Part shown: positions 9,203 through 19,007 of the stretch, piece by piece
Layout: every line of letters starts with the position of its first letter
Position numbering within the stretch: position 1 is the first letter of the stretch
IMG/VR virus record: IMGVR_UViG_3300008451_000398
Location: 1 to 34,250 of that record
Length of the DNA: 34,250 bases
Strand: one strand, 5' to 3'
DNA from: a virus
The notes under the pieces: generated by a model
What the model was told of the DNA's origin: nothing
Databases searched by the model: none
What the model saw: only the letters and a program-made list of their open reading frames with translations
Position numbers and translations under genes: made by a program

Positions 9203-9248
9203 TTTTCTATATTTTCAATGGTTATGCCTACTCTATTAGCTTTTCGGC

Positions 9249-9701
9249 TTACGCTTGTGAACCTCTATTATAAATACTTAAATCAATATCAAACTGAAAA
9301 CCATCTAACCCATTACCTTTGTAATTTCTTAATGGTGTCAATGTAGATAAGTTTTGAATCTCAACTACTAAATCGTTATTTTTCCAACGTAAGTAGTTAA
9401 TTAAATCTAAAGCTATACTATTAGTTTCATTCATATTGTCTAATACGTTACTATCGTTTAGTAATTTAGAATTAGTCTTAATAGGTTTAATATCTCGCTG
9501 CTGCAATATAGTAATTTTATATGTAACTATCAAAGCATCTGTTTGAATATCTACATCTGTTAAATCAACATTAACAAGTGGGTAAATATTTTCTTTATTG
9601 AAATCTAAGTCAAACGTTGGAACTATTGAAATAGTATTAACAAGTGGGTTATTTTCAAACCTACCAATTACAAAATCGTTTAAAAGTGTTAATTCATTCA
9701 T
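9249..9701 (-). CDS. Tail terminator-like / tail completion protein
   Basis: A 150-residue protein without signal or membrane segments. Its alternating beta strands and helices, size and place beside gp10-like neck proteins fit a tail terminator or completion subunit. No motif proves this. It starts one base after the stop of the 83-residue gene. Confidence 0.45.
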   Translation of the reverse strand: MNELTLLNDFVIGRFENNPLVNTISIVPTFDLDFNKENIYPLVNVDLTDVDIQTDALIVTYKITILQQRDIKPIKTNSKLLNDSNVLDNMNETNSIALDLINYLRWKNNDLVVEIQNLSTLTPLRNYKGNGLDGFQFDIDLSIYNRGSQA

Positions 9702-9953: not shown

Positions 9954-10345
9954 ATAGTCAAAAAAAAAGACATTGCCTTTTGACCATCTGATAAACTAAC
10001 CTTATTCACGTCTACTTTTCCAAACCACCACAAAGGGCGTAATATTAATTTAAGTAAACTTTCATAATCTTTGTCATCTTTGAAATTCTCAGCATCTATA
10101 AAATTATCAAACTTGTTTAATTTACCTAATACAAACCAATAAGGAAAAAACCTCTTAGGATTGTTTTGTAATGCTATCCAAAACTCCTCAACATAAAGTG
10201 CCTCGTTTTCTGTAACCTCAGGATAAAAGTGTTCAATTACTTTATCAGCTATTAATACCAAATCTTCTGAATGTTCCGCAATCTCTTGAGAGAATTGTAA
10301 GAACTTCAAATAAGGTATGTCATGCATCGAGTTATACTTTGCCAT
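9884..10345 (-). CDS. Tail assembly chaperone, upstream (G-like) frame
   Basis: A 153-residue mostly helical protein (IPYLKFLQF... near the N terminus, a conserved-looking LRPLWWFGKV near 107-116). Its codons for MSFFL contain a T9 run at 9960-9968, beyond which about 25 more residues are read in zero frame. Length, frame relation to the next gene and position before neck and tail genes fit the G protein of a tail chaperone pair. It overlaps the 69-residue gene by 14 bp. Unlike in lambda, the tape measure gene is about 5 kb further on. Confidence 0.6.
   Translation of the reverse strand: MAKYNSMHDIPYLKFLQFSQEIAEHSEDLVLIADKVIEHFYPEVTENEALYVEEFWIALQNNPKRFFPYWFVLGKLNKFDNFIDAENFKDDKDYESLLKLILRPLWWFGKVDVNKVSLSDGQKAMSFFLTICHKSKLRFNTFLINQLQLQLKR
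9958..9970 (-). other. T9 slippery run, likely -1 frameshift site
   Basis: On the minus strand, TCTTTTTTTTTGAC is read as S-F-F-L-T in zero frame. A -1 slip on the T run yields TTT-GAC-TAT-ATG and enters the 83-residue frame. Poly-T of this length can also give transcriptional slippage. No downstream stem was worked out. Confidence 0.55.
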
Positions 10346-12578: not shown

Positions 12579-13214
12579 TTAGTTATAAATTCCTAATCGT
12601 TCATTATATTTTTTTCTTAGTTCTAATCTTACATTAGCAGAATAAGTTAAATCAGCTTTTTGTAATTCTTTTACTATTTGCCTTGCTATCTTAATTTTTT
12701 CTGCATAATCATTTTTAGCCATTTTAAGCAACGGAAATAATTTTGGTATATCAAACTTTACATATTCCCAATATTGTTTACTATAACGCTCTATTAGACC
12801 TAAATCGTATTTGTGTGTGTTTGCTGACTTCCAATTATTACAATAAAAATCTTGTAAGTGAATATTATCTAAATGAAATCTTATTGTTTTGTTTGAACCA
12901 ACGCTGTGATAATGCCCACCAGCTAAAGTTTTTTGTCCACCACAGCTTATGCAACCCGTTTCTTTGTCGATTAACCTTGCTATGTGATTTATTTCATCTT
13001 GCAAGTCGCTTTCAAAATCGGATTTAGTTTTAAGGCTTTCTTTAATTACTTTCTTTTCCTTTTGCCATTGCTTTACTCTTTGCTTTTCCTTTTCAGCTTT
13101 TACAAACTCGTTAAATGCTTTTATACATTCGTCGTCTGAAAGACAGAAATTTTGAAACTTATACTTAGGTATAAACTTTTCTTTGTGGTATTTACATTTT
13201 GGGAGTCTGTTCAT
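12579..13214 (-). CDS. ninG: NinG/Rap-like recombination protein
   Basis: A 211-residue protein matching lambda NinG (Rap) in layout: an N-terminal Cys/His-containing part (CKYHKEKFIP), a long charged helix, then LQDEINHIARLIDK, CISCGGQ, GGHYHSVGSN and a C-terminal NWKSANTHKYDLGLIERYS. The CxxC and GGHYH residues form the zinc-bound nuclease-like core. In lambda this protein affects recombination and cuts branched DNA. It is close to the NinB-like gene, the ERF protein and the SSB-like protein, which together form a phage recombination set. Confidence 0.85.
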   Translation of the reverse strand: MNRLPKCKYHKEKFIPKYKFQNFCLSDDECIKAFNEFVKAEKEKQRVKQWQKEKKVIKESLKTKSDFESDLQDEINHIARLIDKETGCISCGGQKTLAGGHYHSVGSNKTIRFHLDNIHLQDFYCNNWKSANTHKYDLGLIERYSKQYWEYVKFDIPKLFPLLKMAKNDYAEKIKIARQIVKELQKADLTYSANVRLELRKKYNERLGIYN

Positions 13215-18084: not shown

Positions 18085-18751
18085 TGTTATTATTATTAAT
18101 TGTTATTTCATCATTAAAACGCTCTTGATTTAAATAAGTTGTAGCGTGCGGAAAAGTATATTCTTTAAATGGTTTGTTATTTACAAAATAAGGTAAATGC
18201 TCTTCAATTTTTTGTTTTTGTTCTTTAGATAATTTATTAAATTTTTCTTCGGCTTTTTTCTTATTTGTTTTATTTGGGTACATACTCCAAAAATCATTAA
18301 AAGAATATTCTAAAACTTCAACTTCTAAAAAATCTGTAATAGGTTCTATGTAATATGTATTATGTTTTATTATACTATCATTGCTTTGTACAATGCTTTC
18401 ATCTTGCTTTGTTAAATGCTTTTTACTTGCTTTATCAAGTGCTTTATCAAGTGCTTTGTCAAAATTTGATATAGCTACAATGTTGCTACTGTATTGGTTT
18501 TTTGATTTTTCAATCAATTCTATTAAACCAAATTCAACTAATTCATTTAAAGTTTGAATGTAAGTATTATAACTTCTTATTCCAATAGCCTCTTTACTCA
18601 TTTCAGTAGGTAATCCGAATTTCTTTTTCCACCCTAAACGATTGCAATGCTCAACTATAAATAAATATAATGCACAATGATTAGGTTTAATTTTTTCGGG
18701 ATTCTCAAAAGCAAAATCCCAAAATGCTCGAGTTAATTTAAAATAATCCAT
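18005..18751 (-). CDS. Replication initiator with winged-helix domain (O/DnaD-like)
   Basis: A 248-residue protein starting MDYFKLTRAFWDFAF; the ATG at 18751 is preferred to a TTG five codons upstream because the typical family sequence begins there. Residues ~20-90 form a winged helix (ALYLFIVEHCNRLGW ... EAIGIRSYNTYIQTLNELVEFGLIEL). A linker has the tandem repeat ALDKALDKA. The C-terminal part, FWSMYPNKTNKKKAEEKF ... FPHATTYLNQERF, is that of phage replisome organisers. It should bind the origin and recruit the helicase. It is controlled by its own promoter and a structured leader. Confidence 0.8.
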   Translation of the reverse strand: MDYFKLTRAFWDFAFENPEKIKPNHCALYLFIVEHCNRLGWKKKFGLPTEMSKEAIGIRSYNTYIQTLNELVEFGLIELIEKSKNQYSSNIVAISNFDKALDKALDKASKKHLTKQDESIVQSNDSIIKHNTYYIEPITDFLEVEVLEYSFNDFWSMYPNKTNKKKAEEKFNKLSKEQKQKIEEHLPYFVNNKPFKEYTFPHATTYLNQERFNDEITINNNNNGTTKITDTEQFKLITEAIKSTGIKR

Positions 18752-18763
18752 AATATTATATAA

Positions 18764-18860
18764 CAAAAAACCCTGTCAGTTTCGAGGTGGTGGCTCTACT
18801 CCTGACAAGGTTGTTTAATTGTAAATTTTTAGTTGTAATAAATCCACCACAGATATTACT
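18764..18860 (-). promoter_or_regulatory. Structured leader RNA with two complementary loops
   Basis: Two hairpins fill the leader of the initiator gene. Hairpin 1 (stem 18835-18840/18854-18859) shows GUGGUGG in its loop; hairpin 2 (stem 18771-18779/18802-18810, 9 bp with one G-U) shows CCACCAC in its loop and is followed by six T. The two 7-base loop motifs (18844-18850 and 18787-18793) are exact complements, so they could form a kissing pair. Hairpin 2 could act as an attenuator just before the start codon. Confidence 0.6.
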
Positions 18861-18866
18861 TTAATA

Positions 18867-18896
18867 CAAATATACACAATTATTTTAATATACAAA
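18867..18896 (-). promoter_or_regulatory. Promoter of the replication operon
   Basis: TATATTTG at 18867-18874 with TTTG at 18893-18896, 18 bp apart, fits the Bacteroidetes consensus. The start would be near 18860, at the base of hairpin 1 of the leader RNA. A strong terminator for the upstream operon lies immediately before it. Confidence 0.75.
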
Positions 18897-18905
18897 CTAT
18901 TTTAT

Positions 18906-18935
18906 AAAAAAAAATCCCTAAATTTCTTCAGGGAT
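18906..18935 (-). terminator. Terminator of the early recombination operon
   Basis: ATCCCT and AGGGAT (18914-18919 and 18930-18935) form a 6-bp stem with a 10-base loop, followed on the minus strand by nine T. It separates the ERF/SSB operon from the replication promoter. Confidence 0.8.
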
Positions 18936-19007
18936 AATTAAATCAAATGTGTTTACTAATTCTTTAAATATTGGGTAATTGCTAAAAGGGTAAATCACTT
19001 TCTTCAT
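18918..19007 (-). CDS. Possible 29-residue peptide overlapping SSB-like gene end
   Basis: ATG at 19005-19007, in another frame of the SSB-like gene's last codons, opens MKKVIYPFSNYPIFKELV and ends at TAG inside the terminator stem. The composition looks protein-like and it uses most of the space up to the terminator, but it is too short to be sure. Listed as tentative. Confidence 0.3.
   Translation of the reverse strand: MKKVIYPFSNYPIFKELVNTFDLIIPEEI

Follow-up and report, generated by a model that had tools for sequence, protein, structure and literature searches.

A structured leader RNA with complementary hairpin loops before early genes of Bacteroidota phages

Do two hairpins lying between a promoter and the start codon of a phage replication initiator form a regulatory RNA, and what would such an RNA control? 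The question was raised by a sequence-only reading of a 34,250-base virus record from a Bacteroidota phage (the whole stretch analysed, here called the window), which carries ssb, Erf, NinB, terminase and a phrog_270 initiator. That reading had described two hairpins with the loops GUGGUGG and CCACCAC, exact 7-base complements, and six U after the second stem, leaving the strand unnamed. The description was borne out on the minus strand, upstream of the replication-initiator CDS.

Layout and fold of the leader

All features of the locus are given in minus-strand reading. The end of the ssb gene (18982) is followed by ssb's own terminator (18935-18914, located by terminator scan), a promoter, a first hairpin (H1), a linker, a second hairpin (H2), a U6 run and the initiator ATG. 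The promoter was assigned from sequence as a flavobacterial sigma-A promoter (18896-18867), with TTTG at 18896-18893, an 18-nt spacer and the -7 box TATATTTG at 18874-18867. A TAnnTTTG box occupies -12 to -5 in Flavobacterium psychrophilum (PMC9723704), which places the predicted +1 at ∼18862, so that the transcript would start practically at H1. H1 (18859-18835) is a 5′-terminal hairpin, GUAAUA-UCU-GUGGUGG-AUU-UAUUAC, beginning at about +4, with the kissing loop K1 (GUGGUGG) at 18850-18844. It is separated by an A/U-rich, single-stranded linker (18834-18811, assigned from sequence) from H2 (18810-18771), a terminator-like hairpin of the form CCUUGUCAG-GAGUA-GAG-CCACCAC-CUC-GAAA-CUGACAGGG. H2 consists of an outer stem of 9 bp (11 counting flanking A-U pairs), the internal loop GAGUA/GAAA, the inner stem GAG/CUC and the kissing loop K2 (CCACCAC, 18793-18787), which is the exact 7-nt Watson-Crick complement of K1 and covaries with it in relatives. 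The internal loop presumably resembles the loop-E/sarcin-ricin AGUA-GAA module. The U6 run (18770-18765) stands directly 3′ of the H2 stem, and the CDS (18751-18005, 248 aa) begins with the ATG at 18751, 13 nt past the U run. Its product was identified as a phrog_270 replication initiation protein (E 1.3e-18). H2 was rejected as the terminator of the upstream ssb gene because ssb carries its own.

Minus-strand folds of the leader were more stable than shuffles (z -2.15 and -2.88), with H2 as the driver. The plus-strand fold of the same region was not (z -0.09), and a plus-strand structure was rejected. H1 by itself is weak (-2.1 kcal/mol), so its reality rests on comparison with relatives. Kissing helices of the K1-K2 type gave about -8 to -14 kcal/mol, computed as plain duplexes. 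A descriptor requiring a stem of ≥9 pairs, a U run, a 7-nt loop complement and an H1 stem of ≥5 pairs matched exactly once in the window, at the initiator leader; shuffled windows gave 0.02 matches per strand, or 0.007 with the promoter box added. H2 has the form of an intrinsic terminator, a stable stem with a direct U run, a promoter 5′ and a gene 3′. It was missed by the standard terminator scan because its loop exceeds 8 nt, and it scored 0.9 against 17.2 for the neighbouring ssb terminator, on a score whose calibration is for E. coli.

GTGGTGG occurs five times in the window (0.54 expected). Three further copies are on the strand of K1 (2672-2678, 10025-10031 and 12937-12943, minus), at least one of them inside coding sequence, and these may be due to chance.

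Relatives recovered by loop-free scans

Leaders of initiator homologues were found to have the same layout with different loops. Relatives were then collected by scanning 2.9 million viral contigs twice, with a fixed H2 shell and a free loop (NNNNNNN). The type-A pattern, GGANTAGAG-N7-CTCGAAAC, gave 27 matches, 24 of them in terminator context, with the conserved H2 shell GGANUAGAG-N7-CUCGAAAC. An exact 7/7 complement of the H2 loop was present upstream, within H1, in 24/24 of the terminator-context matches and absent in the other three (L088, L094 and L102). Five type-A loops were observed: CCACCAC, CCACCAT, CCTCCAC, CCGTAAC and CCGGAAT. The type-D pattern, GAYAAAGA-N7-CTTTTGA, gave, among the matches listed, 32 with a T run, 26 of which carried the exact complement; the remaining T-run matches listed had no outer stem by eye. 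Three more real members fell outside the T-run criterion (L258, which is cut by the contig end, L317 and L333), giving 29 type-D members with an exact 7/7 upstream complement and six loop sequences among the matches listed. Types A and D together hold at least 11 different loop sequences, and homologous leaders keep complementary loops.

A third type, B (AATGAAT..AGGATT), has 8-nt loops in the same layout. Its complements weigh less than the loop-free scans of types A and D because they were found by searching for complements; matches listed from a type-B pattern scan were mostly chance. In a free search for kissing complements, those of 8 nt were enriched over shuffles, 19 against 1. Singletons of the same layout were also seen (L002, L003, L006, L009, L031, L084 and others). 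Across the members H1, linker, H2, exact loop complement, U run and ORF were found together. The K1-K2 spacing is 46-59 nt in most type-A members, 40-43 nt in type D and mostly 45-47 nt in type B. The H2 internal loop differs by type (GAGUA/GAAA in A, GAUA/UUGA in D, AUGAAU/AGGAUU in B), and internal loop and inner stem are near-invariant inside each type. The H1 and H2 loops of type D both consist of an A followed by the 7 kissing bases; this leading A is, to our mind, reminiscent of the flanking purines in retroviral dimerisation loops. Candidate second elements with different loop pairs were noted on the single contigs L112, L095, L101 and L004, for example with CGTCCAC in L101 and L004.

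The homologous leaders were then examined for covariation, which was strong in the kissing helix and in both stems. In type D (26 rows) the structure including the pseudoknot was 99.1% paired, and covariation of the whole structure was 0.357 compared with 0.090 in shuffled alignments and ≤0.040 with a slid partner; pairing in the kissing helix was 100%, and three of its columns changed on both sides, none on one side only. Type A (20 rows) was 97.3% paired, with covariation of 0.432 compared with 0.144 shuffled and ≤0.077 slid, and its kissing-helix failures all came from one misaligned row, L086. In these type-A rows, L086 included, the H1 stem pairs were 93.9% kept with two-sided changes in 6/6 pairs, and the H2 outer stem was 99.4% paired with a two-sided change in 8/9 pairs. 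No G-U pairs occurred in the variation of the kissing helix. Because the alignment rows were selected for carrying the loop complement, the kissing-helix figures describe only how the helix varies; the independent evidence for loop pairing is the loop-free scan.

Almost every relative has the promoter box upstream at a constant distance, 9-10 nt from K1 in types D and B and 13-16 nt in type A (46 nt in the type-A exception L086), and H1 starts ∼1-4 nt from the predicted +1. No sense promoter box was found between H2 and the ATG (0/55 members). Past the stem the T fraction is ∼0.7-1.0 over 5 positions in types A, B and D and then declines, with only UUUUCU in certain type-A members. The distance from the H2 stem end to the ATG is 14-26 nt in type A (with two outliers), mostly 24-28 nt in type B and 9-12 nt in most members of type D.

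No Rfam 15 family reached its gathering threshold in the window apart from the catalogued cis-element DUF805b RNA (RF02914, 43.8 bits, gathering 35.6) at 9225-9257 on the minus strand; a permissive search of the leader region gave nothing close to threshold, and three phages with relatives gave only a tRNA. In the article texts searched, no description of a kissing-hairpin leader was found. The RNA structure is near certain to be real. Covariation over many phages, the lack of an Rfam match and the position always directly before an ORF strongly support, at the level of sequence, a new structured element that acts in cis and whose loops interact, and the earlier suggestion of a new cis-regulatory RNA is upheld to this extent. 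The RNA family appears to be new, while the kind of device, a kissing-loop leader before a terminator, has a known relative.

Downstream genes and carrier phages

Type A precedes several unrelated replication initiators (with DUF6291, Phg_2220_C or HTH_36 domains), a Prim-Pol protein, RNase H, a BRO/KilAC antirepressor, and HNH, NUMOD4, T5orf172 or endonuclease VII genes. Behind type D lie mostly homing endonucleases of the NUMOD4-HNH, HNH_3, T5orf172 and GIY-YIG kinds, and relatives also stand before ssb operons and primase-like genes. The assignment as a replication-initiator leader therefore holds for this locus and is too narrow for the element as a whole. A type-D leader was noted at 13317 of L252 (NC_048832) and on many IMG/VR contigs (L260-L364), 9-12 nt before the ATG, and the endonucleases behind such leaders were mostly NUMOD4/HNH/GIY-YIG. 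Homing genes seem either to travel with the type-D leader or to land behind it.

Named carriers are Olleya phage Harreka, Polaribacter phage Danklef, the Flavobacterium elemo phages and the hattifnatt group. Flavobacterium phage hattifnatt has two elements whose loop pairs differ: the first precedes its endonuclease-ssb genes, the second its replication genes. The latter occupies the place orthologous to the window leader (L252 14355, window 18731-18996): identity to the window is 84% over the ssb end, terminator and promoter, and the leader has a different sequence in the same layout, with the loop pair GTGAGACG/CGTCTCAC.

A free-standing small RNA was rejected since real members with enough downstream sequence nearly all lie directly before an ORF. 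A leader-peptide attenuator was likewise rejected: no conserved start codon was seen by eye, and several members have a stop before or in the frame of the shell. In one genome from each of 84,980 species, the strict type-A shell had 16 matches, all chance-like, and in 395 genomes of the class to which a Bacteroidales genome belongs (families unspecified) type D did not exceed the reversed control, so that a host-borne element was rejected and the element looks phage-borne.

Proposed attenuation and the alternatives

The leader is best explained as a cis-acting transcription attenuator at the head of phage early operons, with completion of H2 set by the kissing helix; we give this reading a probability of roughly one half. 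Transcription would begin at the base of H1, which would fold first, and K2, as it emerges, could pair with the waiting K1 loop. The presence or absence of a kissing helix during synthesis of the 3′ arm of H2 would set how well H2 zips before the U run, and thereby the share of polymerases reaching the initiator gene. An attenuator switched by loop pairing had already been put forward from the sequence; it fits the anatomy, and the switching itself stands as a proposal. We infer termination at H2, an effect of kissing on it, and a change with some signal or with the phage cycle. Kissing may equally well block H2 or support it. Since promoter and terminator-form hairpin are followed by a gene with no second promoter, H2 would have to be leaky, conditional or not a terminator.

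Attenuation is favoured by the two hairpins, their covarying kissing complementarity, the U run, the promoter directly 5′ and the ORF directly 3′, and by the orthologous hattifnatt locus, which keeps the promoter and swaps the leader for one with another loop pair. Against it stand the weak terminator score of H2 and the UUUUCU of certain type-A members; neither an alternative (antiterminator) stem nor a common ligand-like core was found in the leaders. The type-D hairpin base, mostly 9-12 nt from the ATG, also suits translation control. Kissed 5′ hairpins beginning next to the predicted +1 could shield the end of the mRNA, with H2 limiting or timing ribosome loading and the U run serving as an unstructured standby or S1-type site. 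Initiation in Flavobacterium johnsoniae is reduced by structure close to the start codon (PMC6847099), and hairpins at the gene start hold down expression of the phage homing endonucleases mobE and I-TevI (PMC3014915). Both leaders and mobE/I-TevI hairpins are RNA structures before homing endonuclease genes; the latter sequester the ribosome site (PMC3014915), whereas the present leader leaves the start codon outside H2 and has a second, kissing hairpin. With these precedents and the type-D spacing, control of translation or mRNA stability is a credible though clearly less probable account. The U run, however, abuts the stem in every type, and the spacing to the ATG is not constant (∼10, 20 and 26 nt by type, and variable within A), which favours a terminator.

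Loop-loop recognition is familiar from plasmid copy-control RNAs such as ColE1 RNA I/RNA II, in which fully paired loops of ∼7 nt set specificity and control replication. The leader shares these traits and differs in having both loops in one transcript, no antisense promoter and many targets other than replication initiators. Phage P4 CI RNA likewise belongs to a replication-operon leader with self-complementary segments and premature termination; P4 uses a processed trans RNA and immunity, whereas the present leader has an intrinsic-terminator form and a 5′-terminal hairpin, and no evidence of trans-action was found. By the same logic a short terminated leader might accumulate and bind, loop to loop, leaders still being transcribed from the same phage or from a co-infecting relative, with dosage feedback or superinfection immunity as the outcome. 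The self-complementary loops, their strict Watson-Crick covariation, the many loop variants within conserved shells and the two loop pairs of hattifnatt would suit such a trans-acting RNA, which we nevertheless consider unlikely. One loop pair dominates type D and another type A across unrelated phages, unlike diversification for self-recognition, and the module is found as an ORF leader. Antisense promoter boxes over the leader were absent in the window and rarer in relatives (2/55) than in the reversed control (9/55), and a plasmid-type antisense RNA was rejected on this count. A ligand-free modular attenuator whose loops act as a rewritable address, with a private pair for each early operon and leader RNAs setting termination on other genome copies or on phages with the same pair, is a similarly speculative idea.

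Judged by analogy, the closest mechanical counterpart is the guanidine-IV riboswitch, which also has two hairpins, a kissing loop and a terminator stem with a U tail (PMC11611296). There kissing opposes the terminator, stem and U tail competing with the kissing loop during transcription (PMC11611296). Guanidine-IV responds to guanidine, whereas the phage leader sits in early operons, its loops vary freely in matched pairs, and it has no shared ligand core; the conserved guanidine-IV core was not found, with no Rfam match (the library being assumed to hold the family) and no conservation of the loops. A true riboswitch, with a small molecule or protein bound by the H2 internal-loop module or at the kissing junction, as near-invariance within each type and the guanidine-IV precedent might suggest, is very improbable given that the internal loop differs among types, the downstream genes have no common pathway and no Rfam riboswitch matches. 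In phage HK022 putL, as here, early transcripts open with two hairpins (PMC9378689), and put RNAs act on transcription through RNA polymerase binding. A folded leader that similarly bound polymerase and made it resistant to later terminators is improbable as well: put RNAs are described with neither loop kissing nor a U run against the second stem, whereas the leader hairpin ends in terminator form and its sequence core varies by type.

Should kissing control termination without a ligand, the leader would amount to a simple natural switch that can be reused. To our knowledge, little is known of early-gene timing in phages of Flavobacterium, Olleya and Polaribacter and their relatives, and a widespread, uncatalogued structured RNA appears to stand before early genes of these phages and of uncultured relatives.
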